Below, one piece after another: positions 49,682 through 57,376 of a stretch of 64,000 bases of DNA. The notes beneath the pieces are model-generated. The model had not been told where the DNA came from. It saw only the letters and a program-made list of their open reading frames with translations, and ran no database searches. Within the stretch, counting starts at the first letter, position 1. Each line of letters opens with the position of its first letter. This stretch comes from Sphingobacterium humi (GTDB lineage Bacteria > Bacteroidota > Bacteroidia > Sphingobacteriales > Sphingobacteriaceae): assembly GCF_009768885.1 (NCBI RefSeq), contig NZ_WSQA01000012.1, positions 1 through 64,000 of the forward strand, in the 5' to 3' direction. Made by a program: the position numbers and the translations under genes.

Positions 49682-52384
49682 TTATTTAATATGGTAACGG
49701 ATGCCGGTATAGAACATGCGTCCTGTAATCGGTCCCCATACCAGGTTGGTATCGAAATTGGCACCGAAAGGATCATCATACGCTAAGATCGGGTCCTTTT
49801 GATAGTAGTTGGTAAAGTTCTCCGCACCTACATAGAGGTCGAAGTTTTTGTTTTTACCAAAGCTCCGACTTACCTGCGCATTCATGGTTACATAGGCATC
49901 AGATCGTGTTGCGGTTTGCTGACTAGAGGTTGATGCTGTCTGCGGTAAGCGTTTTGTGCCCACGGCGTTCAAGGTATAATCGAAACTCCAGCCTGAATGC
50001 AGGTTATAAGCCAGGTTTAAGAAACCCCGGTGTTTTGCATTCAATGGTTTTTCTAAACGGCCCGATTCGTAATCGGTTTTAACATCCAGCATCCGGTAGG
50101 CCATACGTGCCTCAAAGTGCTGCATCGGCATGAACCGGAATTCCGCCTGAATACTGTTGGAATAAGACTTGCCCTGTAGGTTATAGAAACTTACTTGTTG
50201 GCTCTCTTCCCAATCGATTACCACTTGGTTTTCGAAATTATTGTGGAAGAGCTCTACCGAAATGCCAGACTCACGACCAAATAATTGGAAGTTCTGGTCA
50301 ATGGTAATCCCGGTGTTCCAAGATACTTCGGGCTTTAAACCATAGGCATTAGGTTGTGCTGTTAGGCCGACTAAGTCCTGAATTACACGGCTGGACGCAA
50401 AGATTCCTAAGTTTTCTGCAAAGATATTGGCGGTACGTTGTCCGCGGCCCGAGCTTAAACGCAAGGTAGTACCCAAAGCCGGTTGATAGCGTAGAACCGC
50501 ACGTGGGGTGGTAAACCATCCATAGAGGTTGTTATAATCTTGACGTAAGCCTAAAACAGCGTCGAAATTCTCCGATGGGCTGAAGGTATATTCAGCAAAG
50601 GCACCGGTAGTGGTTTCTTTGCGACCAAAGTTCAAGAGGTAATCTTGTTGCTGCTGTGTTTTGCGGCCTATTTCTTCGTCCAGATTATCGTGCTGAACGG
50701 AAGCCCCTACTTTATATTTATGAGCTACCGAGCCTAAGATATCTTGGTATAGTAAGTTGGCGTAGATCGACTTCTGCTCATTGTCATAGGTGTTGTGGCC
50801 GAAGAAGCTTTCTTGCTTGTAGCGGCTGGCCGAAAGCTGCAAGCCTATACTGCGGTGCTTATTGTCTGCAAATACATAGCCTAGTTTTCCGAAACCTTCA
50901 ATACGCTGGTTATTGAAGCCTAAACCATAGCGGTTCTGCCCAAATTTGTCGGTATCTTCATTGAAATCTACTTGACCACCAATACGATCGTCGTGCAGGA
51001 ATTTCACGCCGAACTGCGCAATAACACCTTTTCCGTTTTCATAATGCCAACGGTTAATACCGGAGAATAAGTTCCCCACGGGGATATCTCGGAAACCATT
51101 ATCACTGAAGTTCATCTTCTTATTGTACATAAAGTTGTCGTGCAATAAGAGGCCTACCGACCATTTTTCGTTCAGGTGATGTGCTAAGTTTAAGTTGATA
51201 TCCGTACGGCCCATATTGTTGGCGTAGGCATTCAGGAATAACTTCTCGCTGTTATGTGGTTTTTTAAGTTCAATATTAATCTGTCCGGCCATGTTTTCAA
51301 AGCCATTGGCTACGGAGCCAATCCCTTTACTGATGTTGATGGCTTCGATCCAGGTACCGGCGATGCTGTTTAAGCCCAAGGGGGCCGAGAAAGCACGTGG
51401 TCCCGGTAAGCCTTCTACCGTTAACTGCGTATAGATGCCACTTAAGCCTAACATCTGGATTTGCTTGCTACCCGTTACGGCATCGCTACTGACCACATCC
51501 ACCGATGCGGTGGTGGTAAAGCTTTCACTCAGGTCGCAACATGCCGCTTTAAACAGTTCCTTCGCGGTTAAGGTTTCAATGCGGTTAGGCGTAAGTTTGG
51601 AGATGTAATTTGATTTCTGACGGCGGGAAATAACTATTTCCTTAAGCACATTGTTCTTGGCTTGCACCACGACTATGTCATGCAGATTTTTCACCTCTAC
51701 GGTGTCACTTTGCATGCCTGCATGGGAAATGACCAAATAACGGAAAGGTTTCACGTGCATAATTTTGAAAACGCCGTTTTCATTGGTTTTCACCTTTTTC
51801 GCAGGTTCGTCTGCCCAGTAAACGGTTACTTCCGCAATGGGTTTTAAATCGCCTTTGTCGTTTTCATCGACTACCACGCCGGTTACTTCATGGTCATGAT
51901 CGTGGTTGTGACCACCATCTTCGTCATGCTTCGCATGGTCGTGTCCGGCATGGTCATGCCCTTCATGGTTGTGGTCATGTCCTTCATGGTCATGATCGTC
52001 GTGCTTATGGCCTTCGTGATCGTGGCCCTCATGGTCGTGATCATCATCACCTAAGCGTTCGTAAAGGCAACATTCGTGTAACACTTCATAAATTTCATCT
52101 GCGGCACGATGCGTGTCGGTATCATGGCCGGCAGCTGCAATCTGCTTCTTGATATGATCGATGGATACTTTGTTTGTATCTACTTTTACGGTGGCTAGAT
52201 GGCTGTTTTGGCTCCACTCGATACTTTGTGCTCCAGCTTCTTTACCTGCTTTTTCGATGCGTTTTTTACACATGGCACAATTGCCGGTCACTTCAAAACT
52301 TACGGTGGTTAAAGCTGTTTGGGCCTGTGCTAAAGCCCCACAAAATAATAATATTAGGATTGGGAAAATTCTATATAAGTACAT
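49682..52384 (-). CDS. TonB-dependent receptor with HMA domain and His-rich segment
   Basis: This 900-residue protein has a signal peptide (1-21); a heavy-metal-associated domain (about 25-90) with the metal-binding GNCAMCKKRIEKA; a stretch of about 60 residues of HDHEGHDH-type repeats (about 115-175); a carboxypeptidase regulatory-like domain (about 178-250); a plug (about 275-385); and an outer-membrane beta-barrel to the C-terminus. TonB receptors import scarce solutes using ExbB/D-TonB. The two metal-binding segments suggest copper or zinc handling, which is inference. It lies 60 bp downstream of a small Cys/His-rich exported protein. Confidence 0.9.
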   Translation of the reverse strand: MYLYRIFPILILLFCGALAQAQTALTTVSFEVTGNCAMCKKRIEKAGKEAGAQSIEWSQNSHLATVKVDTNKVSIDHIKKQIAAAGHDTDTHRAADEIYEVLHECCLYERLGDDDHDHEGHDHEGHKHDDHDHEGHDHNHEGHDHAGHDHAKHDEDGGHNHDHDHEVTGVVVDENDKGDLKPIAEVTVYWADEPAKKVKTNENGVFKIMHVKPFRYLVISHAGMQSDTVEVKNLHDIVVVQAKNNVLKEIVISRRQKSNYISKLTPNRIETLTAKELFKAACCDLSESFTTTASVDVVSSDAVTGSKQIQMLGLSGIYTQLTVEGLPGPRAFSAPLGLNSIAGTWIEAINISKGIGSVANGFENMAGQINIELKKPHNSEKLFLNAYANNMGRTDINLNLAHHLNEKWSVGLLLHDNFMYNKKMNFSDNGFRDIPVGNLFSGINRWHYENGKGVIAQFGVKFLHDDRIGGQVDFNEDTDKFGQNRYGLGFNNQRIEGFGKLGYVFADNKHRSIGLQLSASRYKQESFFGHNTYDNEQKSIYANLLYQDILGSVAHKYKVGASVQHDNLDEEIGRKTQQQQDYLLNFGRKETTTGAFAEYTFSPSENFDAVLGLRQDYNNLYGWFTTPRAVLRYQPALGTTLRLSSGRGQRTANIFAENLGIFASSRVIQDLVGLTAQPNAYGLKPEVSWNTGITIDQNFQLFGRESGISVELFHNNFENQVVIDWEESQQVSFYNLQGKSYSNSIQAEFRFMPMQHFEARMAYRMLDVKTDYESGRLEKPLNAKHRGFLNLAYNLHSGWSFDYTLNAVGTKRLPQTASTSSQQTATRSDAYVTMNAQVSRSFGKNKNFDLYVGAENFTNYYQKDPILAYDDPFGANFDTNLVWGPITGRMFYTGIRYHIK

Positions 52385-53153: not shown

Positions 53154-53915
53154 TTATTTTTTGTTCTTGATGCCTCGGATGAATTCCGGAATCTTCGCTA
53201 AGTAATTTTCCTCACGAAGTAATTTGACAAAGGCGGTGCCGACAATGGCACCATGTGCATATTGGGTAGCCTTCTGGAAGGTGTCCTGGTTATGAATACC
53301 AAAACCTATCACTAAAGGGCTGTTTAAATCCATCGCTTGAATACGTTTGAAATAGGCTTCCGACTGTTCCTGTATATTTAATTGCTTCCCTGTGGTGGCA
53401 TTCGAGGAGAGCAGGTAGATAAAACCGGTGGATAATTTATCGATCTTCCGGATGCGGTCCTCCGATGTTTGTGGAGTAACCAAGAAGATATTGCTGATGC
53501 CGTTTTCCTCAAAAATTGGTTGGTAGAGGGCTTCGTATTCATACATGGGTAAATCGGGAATAATCGTACCGTTAACTCCCACCTCTTTACAGGCTTTGCA
53601 AAAGGCCTCCACTCCAAATTGTAATACCGGATTGAAATAACCCATTAAGTAAACCGGAATGCTGACTTCTTTGCGTAAATCTTGGAGCTGCTGGAATAAG
53701 ACCTTGAGGGTCATTCCGTTTTTTAGGGCTTCCTCCGAACTGTGCTGGATGGTAGGGCCATCGGCCACCGGATCGGAATAAGGGAATCCGATTTCCAAGA
53801 AATCTGCACCCGCGGCTTCCAAGGCTTTCGCTATTTCCAGGGTGCTATCTATATGGGGGTATCCTGCCGTAAAATAGATGGATAATAATCCATTGGCGTG
53901 TTTTGTTATCTGCAT
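53154..53915 (-). CDS. trpA: Tryptophan synthase alpha subunit
   Basis: TrpA cleaves indole-3-glycerol phosphate to indole for TrpB. The 253-residue TIM-barrel has LLSIYFTAGYPHIDST, catalytic Glu in DFLEIGFPYSDPVADGPTIQ and Asp in TIIPDLPMYEYE, and the phosphate loop VIGFGIHNQD. ATG at 53915 is preferred; a TTG at 53930 would overlap trpB by 11 bp and only adds five residues. It is the last gene of the trp run. Confidence 0.95.
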   Translation of the reverse strand: MQITKHANGLLSIYFTAGYPHIDSTLEIAKALEAAGADFLEIGFPYSDPVADGPTIQHSSEEALKNGMTLKVLFQQLQDLRKEVSIPVYLMGYFNPVLQFGVEAFCKACKEVGVNGTIIPDLPMYEYEALYQPIFEENGISNIFLVTPQTSEDRIRKIDKLSTGFIYLLSSNATTGKQLNIQEQSEAYFKRIQAMDLNSPLVIGFGIHNQDTFQKATQYAHGAIVGTAFVKLLREENYLAKIPEFIRGIKNKK

Positions 53916-53919
53916 GCTC

Positions 53920-55104
53920 TTAAAATCCAAAATAGTTCATATAATTATCCAAATCCTTATCGCCACGTCCGGAAAGACAGATGACAACGGTCTCATCGCC
54001 TTTAAAGTTCATTTTCTCCAAATGCGCTAAGGCGTGTGAAGACTCGATAGCCGGGATGATACCTTCCAGCTTGGTCAGCAGTAGGCCGGCCTGCATGGCT
54101 TCATCATCCGTAGCACTTACATAGCTGCCGCGTCCTGACTTAAACAACCAGGCATGTTGCGGGCCGATGCCCGGATAATCTAATCCTGCGGAAATGGAAT
54201 AAGGCTCGATCACTTGTCCGTCTTCGGTTTGCATCAGGATGGAACGGCTGCCATGCAGCACGCCTTCCTTGCCCAACACGGTAGTTGCCGCAGACTCGCC
54301 GCTGTTTACCCCGTGTCCGGCAGCTTCCACAGCAATCAATTGCACGTCTTCAGCGTCTAGGAAATGATAGAACATGCCGGCGGCATTGGATCCGCCACCC
54401 ACACAGGCCATCACGATATCGGGGTTTTCTTTTCCTGTTTTCTCCAGGAGTTGCTTTTTGGTTTCTTCGGAAATAATGGATTGAAAGCGAGCTACCATAT
54501 CGGGGTAAGGGTGTGGCCCTACCACCGATCCGATGATGTAATGTGTATCTACCGGATTGTTAATCCAATCGCGTAGCGCTTCATTGGTGGCATCTTTTAA
54601 GGTTTTGCTACCCGATTGCGCCGCCACAACGGTAGCTCCCATCATCTTCATGCGGGCTACATTAGGTGCCTGTCTTTTGATGTCGATTTCGCCCATATAA
54701 ACCACACATTCTAGGCCTTTCAAGGCGCAAACTGTGGCTGTGGCAACACCATGCTGCCCGGCTCCGGTTTCGGCGATAATACGCTTCTTGCCTAAGCGCT
54801 CTGCCAATAAGATCTGGCCAATGGTATTGTTGATTTTATGGGCACCGGTATGGTTGAGGTCCTCGCGCTTGAGGTAGATGTTGGTTTTGTATTTTTCCGA
54901 AAGTCGGTTGGCCCGATATAAGGGGGATGGGCGACCTACATAATCCCGAAGGAGCTGTTCGAACTCTTGCTGAAAGGAAGGATCGGCCATAATATCGAGG
55001 TATTGCTGCTGTAGCTCTTCCACATTCGGGTATAACATTTCGGGGATATAGGCGCCACCAAATGGGCCATAATACCCTTCTTTATTTACTTGATATTTGC
55101 TCAT
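53920..55104 (-). CDS. trpB: Tryptophan synthase beta subunit
   Basis: TrpB condenses indole with serine using PLP. The 394-residue protein has the PLP lysine in [15 protein letters not shown] (about 85), the [11 protein letters not shown] loop and the phosphate-binding GGGSNA. Length is typical. It overlaps trpF by 23 bp upstream and is followed by trpA. Confidence 0.96.
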
Positions 55105-55729
55105 GGTTGATTATTTTCAATGCTTTTTTTAAGGTATCTAGATCTTTTAAGCCGGGTTCTGTTTCAAATTTCGAGTTCAGGTCTAAGCCTATTAACCGGG
55201 CATCTGCAAAGGCAGGCACTTCCTTTAGGTTTTCTAGGGAAAGTCCGCCGCTTAAAAAATAGGGTTTATCGTAAGGGTAATCTTTCAGTTTATTCCAATT
55301 AAAGGCTTTTCCTGTTCCGCCGTAAGCAGCACTTTTGCTATCGAAGAGGAAATAATCGACGTATGGTAGATAGGGCGCTAAACGATCCCAGTTGAAATCA
55401 TCGTCTATGCCGAAAGCCTTAATAATTTCTACGCCACTAGCCTGAAATGCTTGGCAGAAGGCCGCAGGCTCATCGCCATGTAATTGGATCGCATTCAGGT
55501 CGAAATCCTGGATATGCTGCTTAATCTGCTCTTGTGATTCGTTGACAAATACGCCGGTTTTCTTGACCGAGGCTGGGTAGCTGATGGCTAGCGGGCTAGC
55601 CAGATAACGAGGCGACTTCGGGTAAAAGATATGACCGATATAATCGATAGGCAATTGCAATAGCCCTTCAATATTGGCTTTCTCGCGCATACCGCATACT
55701 TTTACCAGGAGCTTTCCTTGCTTAGCCAT
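55082..55729 (-). CDS. trpF: Phosphoribosylanthranilate isomerase
   Basis: TrpF converts phosphoribosylanthranilate to CdRP. The 215-residue TIM-barrel has [15 protein letters not shown] with the catalytic Cys, the [13 protein letters not shown] segment, and the C-terminal [25 protein letters not shown] with the Asp. It lies directly after trpD (8-bp overlap). No trpC (indole-glycerol phosphate synthase) separates it from trpD, unlike the usual order. Confidence 0.94.
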
Positions 55730-56711
55730 GGATTAATTGTTTAAAGCTGTTCAAGGCTTTTAAGCCTAATAATGAAGATTCTGCTTCATAATAGCAATCG
55801 GCAAAGCTTTTCTCCGGATGGAAGGTTTTGATGCCGAAGGCTGCATTGCTTAATACGGCATTGTTCTGCGCGTCGGTACCATTTCCTTCAATAATCTGAC
55901 GGAAGATCTGTGCGGCTTCCTCTACAGTGTTACCACCAGCCAGTGCATCGGCCTGAATCGGCTCGAAGCCTAATTCCTGTACGGTATAATAGTTTTCTCC
56001 GGCATTGTTAATCACTTTGAAATCGCCGGTTAAGGAGATTTCATCATAACCATCTAAAGCGTGGATAATGCTGTATTGCTTATCACTTCCCTGATACAGG
56101 TATGCGTATAATCGGGCTAATTCTAAGCTGAAGACGCCTACCGACTGGAACTTCGGATTTGCAGGATTGGTTAAAGGCCCCAACATATTGAAAAAGGTTT
56201 TAACGGCTAATGCTTTGCGAATGGGAGCAACGGTTTTCATGGCAGGGTGGAACAGGGGCGCATGTAGGAAACAGATGTTCGCGCGCTCGAGCTGCGCTTG
56301 CAACTGCTCCTTATCGTTGCTAAAGGTATAGCCAAGGTATTCCATCACATTGGAGGAGCCACAGCCCGAGGATACCCCAACATTGCCGTGCTTAGCCACG
56401 TGGTATCCCGCTCCGGCAACCACAAAAGACGCCAAGGTGGAGATATTGAAGGTGTTTTTACCATCGCCACCCGTGCCACACATATCGATAAGATCATAGC
56501 CCTGGAAGTCTACTTTATGGCAGAGATCGTACATGGCATCCCGAAAGCCGCCAAGCTCCTCCACACGGATGCTGCGCATTCCGTAGATGGTCATGAAAGC
56601 CGCAATCTGGTGGCTGTCGTATTTTCCTGTCGCAATATTCGTCAGGATGTTGTAAGCCTCTTGTCTTGTAAAAGACTTGTACTCAAATAAATGTATTAAT
56701 ATCTCTTTCAT
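55722..56711 (-). CDS. trpD: Anthranilate phosphoribosyltransferase
   Basis: TrpD joins anthranilate to PRPP. The 329-residue protein has MCGTGGDGKNTFNIST, the PRPP loop, near residue 75, and HGNVGVSSGCGSSN-type anthranilate site residues. ATG at 56711 is used; an ATG at 56741 lies within the attenuator hairpin and encodes a sequence unlike the family. The gene is first in the trp run and directly downstream of the trpL leader. Confidence 0.95.
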   Translation of the reverse strand: MKEILIHLFEYKSFTRQEAYNILTNIATGKYDSHQIAAFMTIYGMRSIRVEELGGFRDAMYDLCHKVDFQGYDLIDMCGTGGDGKNTFNISTLASFVVAGAGYHVAKHGNVGVSSGCGSSNVMEYLGYTFSNDKEQLQAQLERANICFLHAPLFHPAMKTVAPIRKALAVKTFFNMLGPLTNPANPKFQSVGVFSLELARLYAYLYQGSDKQYSIIHALDGYDEISLTGDFKVINNAGENYYTVQELGFEPIQADALAGGNTVEEAAQIFRQIIEGNGTDAQNNAVLSNAAFGIKTFHPEKSFADCYYEAESSLLGLKALNSFKQLIHG

Positions 56712-56721
56712 AATATGGCAT

Positions 56722-56750
56722 AAAAAAAGGCTTGCCCACAAGGCAAGCCC
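56722..56750 (-). terminator. trp operon attenuator (intrinsic terminator)
   Basis: On the minus strand GGCTTGCC / GGCAAGCC form a perfect 8-bp GC-rich stem followed by seven T, ending 10 bases before the trpD ATG and 48 bases after the trpL stop. A pairing partner for the 5' arm (GGCAA then CC, around 56782-56793) lies between trpL and the hairpin and could form an antiterminator. Confidence 0.85.
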
Positions 56751-56797
56751 ACTATTTTTGTATCATTAAATTCAACGAATAGGATTTTGCCACAACA

Positions 56798-56845
56798 TTA
56801 ATTGTTGTGCCACCACCAAGCTGTATTTAAGATATTTATTGTCAT
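56798..56845 (-). CDS. trpL: trp leader peptide with three tandem Trp codons
   Basis: An ATG on the minus strand opens MTINILNTAWWWHNN and stops at TAA, 15 codons in all. Residues 10-12 are three consecutive TGG codons, in a genome where Trp is rare. It lies 18 bases downstream of a TATCTTTG -7 element, overlaps the first arm of a 7-bp hairpin (CACAACA / TGTTGTG, 56791-56809), and is followed by a terminator just before trpD. The order is that of a ribosome-stalling attenuation leader. The product itself is expected to have no function. Confidence 0.85.
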   Translation of the reverse strand: MTINILNTAWWWHNN

Positions 56846-56863
56846 TACTTATTGAACAAATAT

Positions 56864-56871
56864 CAAAGATA
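56864..56871 (-). promoter_or_regulatory. -7 element of trp operon promoter (TATCTTTG)
   Basis: Exact TAnnTTTG match 18 bases before the trpL ATG. A TTG lies 13 bases upstream, closer than usual, so the -33 element is not clear. Confidence 0.5.
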
Positions 56872-56914: not shown

Positions 56915-57376
56915 CTAATAGGTTACGAAATGCGCCATCTCATTTCCTTTGGAAACCAAGGTAAATGATCTGATTTTATTCCCCTCCACATACAAGGCTG
57001 TTAGCAACCTGTTTTTGGAATACACAAAGACCATTTGCTCTACGTTTAAGCCTTCCGGATCGATATCCCGAACTTCTTTTTGCGGCAGTTCATGATACTT
57101 TTTAAACTGCAGTTCTTCGATTTTTTTTGTCGAGAGATTCAAGCGTATTTCCTGCAAAGAAGCTTCTAGGTAATCATACAACTCTTGGTCAGGATTCTTT
57201 ACAATAACTTGTTCACTAAGAACGATATCTAAGGCTAAATCGAGGTCGGCTAAGTCCTGTATAAAGTGCTTCGCTACAGTAAGGCTGTTCGTTAATTGCG
57301 CACTCGATTTAGGCGCTTGCGCGGAAGCAAAATAAGGTATGATAATACTTATTAGTAGGAGTAGATGTTTTCCCAT
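56915..57376 (-). CDS. Small exported protein, unknown
   Basis: At 153 residues it has a signal peptide (1-19, ending ASA-Q). The mature part is helical in its first half (LTVAKHFIQDLADLDLALDIVLSEQ) and beta-strand-like at the end. I recognise no family. It lies upstream of the trp leader on the same strand, separated by the trp promoter; read-through into trp is possible but not required. No terminator is evident after it. Confidence 0.75.
   Translation of the reverse strand: MGKHLLLLISIIIPYFASAQAPKSSAQLTNSLTVAKHFIQDLADLDLALDIVLSEQVIVKNPDQELYDYLEASLQEIRLNLSTKKIEELQFKKYHELPQKEVRDIDPEGLNVEQMVFVYSKNRLLTALYVEGNKIRSFTLVSKGNEMAHFVTY

Follow-up and report, generated by a model that had tools for sequence, protein, structure and literature searches.

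The trpDFBA genes and their leader region

The window (the whole 64-kb stretch of Sphingobacterium humi DNA analysed here) carries the genes trpD, trpF, trpB and trpA on its minus strand, preceded by a leader region whose named parts could all be located on that strand by direct reading of the sequence (Table 1). The longest ORF predicted mechanically for trpD begins at a TTG (56741) that lies within the terminator. The likely start is the ATG at 56711, since an ATG stands there in the 48 aligned relatives as well. Two neighbouring minus-strand ORFs may be mentioned. One, of 153 amino acids (56915-57376), lies just upstream of the leader, has by eye a signal-peptide-like start and gave no NCBIfam match at E<=0.001. 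The other, of 900 amino acids (49682-52384), resembles, on visual inspection, an outer-membrane receptor and includes near its N-terminus a long His/Asp-rich stretch, perhaps for metal binding.

Table 1. Features of the trpDFBA leader, the genes that follow it and the second leader of the same genome
Feature	Coordinates	Strand	Basis
TATCTTTG, putative -7-type element of a Bacteroidota promoter	56864..56871	-	sequence
Leader peptide ORF MTINILNTAWWWHNN*, ATG to TAA, 15 codons	56798..56845	-	sequence and same-genus conservation
TGG TGG TGG, Trp codon triplet (putative sensor)	56810..56818	-	sequence and conservation
Segment 1, CACAACA, 5' arm of hairpin 1:2	56803..56809	-	sequence, folding, covariation
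TGTTGTG, 3' arm of hairpin 1:2, where segment 2 begins	56791..56797	-	sequence, folding, covariation
Segment 2, GGCAAAATCCTATT, putative antiterminator strand	56778..56791	-	predicted pairing with segment 3 and the bases preceding it (segment 1 masked, segment 4 not yet made)
Segment 3, terminator 5' arm and putative antiterminator partner	56742..56750	-	sequence, pairing, masked folding
Predicted intrinsic terminator, GGGCTTGCC TTGTG GGCAAGCC plus T7, stem -16.3 kcal/mol	56722..56750	-	sequence
trpD, anthranilate phosphoribosyltransferase, first gene controlled (putatively)	55722..56711	-	TIGR01245, 298.5 bits (cut-off 199)
trpF, phosphoribosylanthranilate isomerase	55082..55729	-	NF002298, 156 bits (below the 215-bit cut-off)
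trpB	53920..55104	-	TIGR00263, 588 bits
trpA, ORF from first TTG (true start may be internal)	53154..53930	-	TIGR00262, 232 bits
Second Trp leader, MMTEIKYTNRWWLLT*, before trpE-trpG-trpC	about 5515-5675 of L007 (contig C2)	-	sequence

A preliminary description of this region, made from the sequence, had listed a promoter element, a 15-codon ORF with three consecutive Trp codons, a 7-bp hairpin at the end of that ORF, a GGCAA complementary to the terminator 5' arm and a perfect stem with seven T residues 10 bases before trpD. Each of these was found again in its place. The loop of hairpin 1:2 holds the stop codon of the leader, GGCAA (56791-56787) can pair with TTGCC (56746-56742), and the T7 run (56728-56722) is followed by 10 bases and then by the trpD ATG. 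The promoter element is called a -7-type element on the basis of what we take to be the Bacteroidota promoter consensus; among trpD leaders of the genus its exact form, TAnnTTTG, is infrequent (see below).

Within the window no ORF of 8-31 codons apart from the leader ORF contains three consecutive Trp codons (WWW). Ten ORFs of this size contain two (WW), and among them the leader ORF alone is followed, within 130 nt, by a perfect terminator stem (-10 kcal/mol or better). The predicted folding energy of the leader is -38.7 kcal/mol, compared with -26.7 kcal/mol for shuffled sequences (z -3.6; 0/200 shuffles as good).

Conservation of the trpD leader

Alignment of trpD upstream regions, proposed in the preliminary description as a check for a conserved Trp-rich leader, shows that a Trp-Trp leader ORF is present in all 48 same-genus regions (S. 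humi and 47 others), as WWW in 44 and as WW in 4. In one genome (G068) it exists only if a TTG start is accepted. Loss of the Trp codons with retention of the hairpin, the pattern that the same description had named as evidence against its reading, occurs in none of the 48. The 'same-genus' set is wide: two of its members (G019 and G011) have trpE leader peptides identical to those of Parapedobacter sp. and Rhinopithecimicrobium faecis.

Exact TAnnTTTG lies no more than 45 nt from the leader start in 4/48 trpD leaders of the genus; ATATTTG or ACATTTG is found in 41 of the other 44 (35 nt inspected, counted by eye). Before the trpE leaders described in the next section the exact form is usual (31/33).

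Twenty-nine loci were read: L027, L031 and 27 loci that were new in a search of a family sample with the Rfam family RF01692 (28 were new; L108 was left out). Each has a leader with WW or WWW; TrpD is the next protein in 26 and TrpE in 2, and at the remaining locus (L087) the stretch covered includes neither.

A terminator with a T run follows the leader ORF in 48/48 trpD leaders of the genus. This bears on the possibility that translation of the leader controls not termination but translation of trpD, by re-initiation or by masking of its start. The short distance between the leader stop and the trpD start in S. humi (86 bases) would suit such a coupling, but the terminator is always present, and the gap between it and the gene start ranges from 15 to 84 nt where a 90-nt search found it, 4 leaders having needed a wider one. 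We consider translational control extremely improbable.

A second leader upstream of trpE

The S. humi genome carries trpE and trpC on another contig (C2), with an amidotransferase ORF between them which, from its place and sequence, we read as trpG. A second Trp leader stands before these genes (Table 1). It has the layout of the trpD leader in a different sequence: a hairpin (GACTT/AAGTC) at the stop codon is followed by GTCGGG, which is complementary to CCCGAC in the terminator GCCCGACGTAAATACGTCGGGC-T7. It is likely to be an uncatalogued twin of the trpD attenuator, judging from its layout. Compared with Rfam at E<=10, the trpE leader gave no match much over half its gathering score and RF01692 was silent; weak matches to STnc240, MicC, L10_leader and others, none scoring above roughly half of its cut-off, were rejected. 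The catalogue thus undercounts Trp leader elements.

Such a leader precedes trpE in 35/35 genus genomes with a usable trpE. Thirty-six were searched; in the remaining one (G032) trpE occurs in fragments only. Between segment 2 and the terminator of the trpE leaders (for example, L007 and L161-L203) lies a 15-nt block, AATCAACCAAAACCA, that is exact in 34/35 and differs at its last base in the other (G001). None of the 48 trpD leaders contains it. When a 20-mer containing this block was scanned over the genome contigs, 43 stretches were obtained, and in 41 of them the match is closely flanked by a WW leader on its upstream side and by trpE on its downstream side. At one of the others (L169) the WW leader is present and the stretch ends before the gene. 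The last, in a Prochlorococcus record (L178), has neither trpE nor a leader and is probably a chance match.

Pairing and covariation of the helices

Pairing was examined in 43 distinct rows of trpD leaders, with the helices defined on the window copy. Helix 1:2 pairs in 294/301 cells (97.7%), with 15 two-sided changes that fall in two of its seven pairs. In helix 3:4 every cell pairs and one cell has a two-sided change. Helix 2:3 also pairs in 100% of cells (43/43 rows keep the segment-2 complement); its covariation is weak, since it includes no two-sided change in the genus. Controls in which the helices were slid reach at most 62.5%.

Whether each segment 2 is matched to its own segment 3 was assessed by permutation. 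A first version, using the terminator 5' arm alone in 25 leaders, gave a mixed result: shuffles were as good in 4/300 cases for the window leader, in 253/300 for G148, 242/300 for G046b and 171/300 for G049. Since the complement extends into the terminator loop in several lineages, the test was repeated with arm plus loop, a version chosen after the arm-only result had been seen. For 24 leaders picked by hand from 113, with kinship remaining in the statistic, the native segment 2:segment 3 duplexes average -13.1 kcal/mol compared with -9.3 kcal/mol for permuted pairs, and 0/20,000 permutations were as good. The signal comes from the trpE leaders. Their antiterminator complementarity is matched by lineage, both in the full set of 14 (0/20,000 permutations as good) and in a set of 11 that includes a single leader from the genus Sphingobacterium (1/20,000). 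For the 10 trpD leaders alone, whose complementarity hardly varies, the result is not significant (3,431/20,000). The window segment 2 gains nothing from its own segment 3 (-9.4 kcal/mol) over those of other leaders (-9.0 kcal/mol on average; rank 13 of 24).

These data also bear on a simpler view, in which the terminator is constitutive and the ORF encodes a conserved small upstream protein without any regulation. The terminator does score well by itself (-16.3 kcal/mol). However, it sits between a promoter-like element and trpD, its segment-2 complement is kept in all 43 distinct rows, and the same layout recurs with other sequences before trpE. An unregulated terminator therefore has a very slim chance of being the right explanation.

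Folding with a stalled ribosome

In the stall model the RNA is masked up to a ribosome at a Trp codon and the transcript ends before segment 4. The competing folds are thermodynamically feasible. With the stall at the last Trp codon of the window leader, the predicted antiterminator (GGCAA/TTGCC plus CCTATT/AGTGGG) has -12.0 kcal/mol, and with the stall at the first Trp codon the antiterminator fold has -14.5 kcal/mol. When the leader is masked to its stop codon, the CCTATT/AGTGGG helix alone remains (-4.6 kcal/mol). At equilibrium the complete leader favours the terminator, and masking of segment 1 does not alter this; antitermination would therefore have to be kinetic, taking place during the passage of RNA polymerase.

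The same calculation was made for the other leaders. The trpE counts cover 33 of the 35 genus leaders; two (G001 and G028) have no terminator within the limits set, although inspection by eye shows a stem in each. For trpD in other genera, 24 of the 28 new loci were used (L086, L104, L108 and L111 were left out) and two more (G184 and G170) were lost because of an imperfect stem, leaving 22. The trpE region of G058, which has no WW ORF, was left out of the pairing tests. With the ribosome stalled at Trp, at least six 2:3 pairs form in 46/48 trpD and 32/33 trpE leaders of the genus and in 22/22 and 10/10, respectively, of other genera, a lenient threshold given that shuffles average 5.4 to 8.1 pairs depending on the group. 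With the ribosome at the stop codon the figures are 2/48, 5/33, 0/22 and 2/10, a fall that must be read in the light of the masking itself, which removes segment 2 of the trpD leaders by construction and lowers the number of pairs the further it extends. In the stalled state, no more than 5/100 shuffles are as good as the native fold for 25/48 trpD and 22/33 trpE leaders of the genus and for 14/22 and 4/10 of those of other genera. The window leader (8/100) and its trpE twin (15/100) lie outside this limit.

Spacing provides a further view, for which the size of the ribosome footprint is the yardstick. The antiterminator core begins 17 nt past the last Trp codon in 43/47 trpD leaders (G019 was missed by the spacing motif and is outside this count) and 16 nt past it in 30/33 trpE leaders. 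The stop codon of the trpE leaders, by comparison, is found at positions ranging from 6 nt upstream to 29 nt downstream of the core start; it drifts, whereas the Trp codons and the antiterminator keep their distance. In 13/33 trpE leaders the stop is 20-29 nt beyond the core, and the rule that a ribosome at the stop masks segment 2 fails as such there. Measured on the folded structures, the distance from the last Trp codon to the first antiterminator base is 11-18 nt for 45/48 trpD and 32/33 trpE leaders of the genus, compared with 165/960 and 90/660 shuffles. In other genera this holds for 8/22 trpD leaders (shuffles 98/440), with 13 more at 21 nt, and for 8/10 trpE leaders (shuffles 43/200). 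The conserved spacing fits a strand that would begin right where the RNA covered by a ribosome stalled at these codons ends.

This spacing, together with the retention of the Trp ORF in 48/48 trpD leaders, also bears on a role for a trans-acting factor, in which a TRAP-like protein or an uncharged tRNA (T-box) would read the terminator and the leader ORF would be incidental. Neither mechanism requires the ORF or the spacing. The near-invariant block of the trpE leaders (exact in 34/35) goes beyond what an attenuator accounts for and could be a binding site, but it is missing from all 48 trpD leaders. Nor does Rfam contain a T-box match over the window at gathering scores or over the trpD leader at E<=10. 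We regard a trans-acting reader of the terminator as highly improbable.

Proposed mechanism

The preliminary description had read the region as a leader-peptide attenuator, and comparison supports that reading. It is based on the conserved Trp ORF, the competing helices, the second leader before trpE, the near-fixed spacing within the genus and the lineage-matched pairing of the trpE leaders. From its anatomy and these comparisons, the trpDFBA leader is very probably a ribosome-mediated transcription attenuator with a predicted response to tryptophan. T-box, TRAP, constitutive termination and translational control were weighed as alternatives and rejected. We infer that ribosome stalling, a tryptophan response and premature termination would take place in the cell as follows.

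A ribosome would trail RNA polymerase while translating the 15-codon leader. Where charged tRNA-Trp is in short supply, this ribosome would stall on TGG TGG TGG and cover CACAACA. GGCAAAATCCTATT would then be free to pair with AGTGGGCTTGCC, which includes the terminator 5' arm, and the operon would be transcribed. If tryptophan is plentiful, the ribosome would reach the stop codon, segment 2 would be covered and the terminator would form. Termination would also be expected without translation, as hairpin 1:2 would hide segment 2. A leader of the same design before trpE-trpG-trpC would let the remaining half of the pathway respond to this signal too.

Other families and other leader-like ORFs

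Eleven trpE upstream regions from other families of the class (two of them from one genome) were inspected, and nine have a WW or WRW leader. In the other two a short ORF with a single Trp stands before the terminator: in G037 one Trp is followed by two Cys codons, and in G058 the ORF simply has one Trp. These single-Trp ORFs (loci L157 and L150, one of them reading Trp-Cys-Cys, TGG TGC TGC) are possibly decaying or retuned sensors. At two trpD loci (L159 in G078 and L160 in G071) no leader adjoins trpD, which does not stand first among the genes in the stretch covered.

A His-rich short ORF, MKINRTYHHCFHHRHCGDRY*, occurs upstream of hisG on contig C1 of the S. humi genome (1212-1274 of L204). 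It is a possible histidine leader peptide. No terminator with a T run is obvious by eye.

A wider picture can be drawn, though we think it unlikely to hold as a whole. Leader-peptide control of trp genes would extend throughout the Bacteroidia, where many leaders would have diverged beyond the reach of RF01692; the split pathway of Sphingobacterium would have two independently evolving attenuators; and the near-invariant element of the trpE leaders, of 15 to 20 nt, would have been gained as a site at which a second regulator binds, and would not be a strand of a helix.

Comparison with known attenuators

At gathering scores, Rfam has no match anywhere in the 64-kb window. With relaxed scores the trpD leader matches RF01692 (Bacteroid-trp, 'Bacteroidete tryptophan peptide leader RNA') at 45.5 bits (E 1.4e-4), below the gathering score of 49 bits. 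The alignment is full length (model 1-131, not cut off) and the genomic context is that of the family, upstream of a Bacteroidota trpDFBA. Leaders in the same position reach or exceed the gathering score in five same-genus genomes (49 to 54.5 bits) and in G213 (53.9 bits), and it is orthology with the same-genus leaders, not its own score, that assigns the window leader to RF01692. At E<=0.1 the family is found in 27/36 same-genus genomes, and the gathering score is reached in 5/59 genomes of that search; in the family sample 67/151 match, 8 of them at the gathering score. Two other matches were taken as chance: RsaD on the plus strand (29.7 of 50 bits) and a second RF01692 match in the S. humi genome, on contig C28 (23.1 bits, E 8.6).

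This kind of element is therefore already catalogued for Bacteroidota, which answers the doubt expressed in the preliminary description as to whether it had been described in this group. RF01692 shares with the window leader the Trp codons, the terminator-arm GGCUUG and the trp gene context. Its structure line shows no pairing in the 3' part, where the terminator arm lies, and it does not match the trpE leader of S. humi. What is added here is the uncatalogued trpE twin, the conserved geometry and the near-invariant block of the trpE leaders. Among the papers searched for attenuation or leader peptides in Bacteroidetes, flavobacteria, Sphingobacterium or Bacteroides, no title points to an experimental test in this phylum.

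The family is traced to Weinberg et al. 2010 (PMC2864571). In Flavobacterium psychrophilum, another Bacteroidota genus, the Bacteroid-trp motif lies upstream of the trp operon and has been likened to the E. coli leader; in the part of that paper drawn on here, the role, the same as that proposed for the Sphingobacterium leaders, is inferred from the motif (PMC6414381). Outside the phylum, experimental support for ribosome-mediated attenuation in Actinobacteria is cited in PMC4833913.

Two leaders of one genome with unlike sequence and alike geometry provide a clean test case for attenuation, and they do so in a phylum whose promoters differ from those of E. coli. It is in E. coli that ribosome-mediated attenuation was worked out. 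The enterobacterial trp attenuator consists of a leader peptide with Trp codons, alternative 1:2, 2:3 and 3:4 helices and an intrinsic terminator. Its Rfam family (RF00513, Trp_leader) is absent among the trpD-leader matches at E<=10 and reaches 17.9 of the 41 bits required on the trpE leader. The Sphingobacterium leaders would nevertheless share its working design, and differ from it in the division of the pathway between two transcription units, each with a leader of its own.
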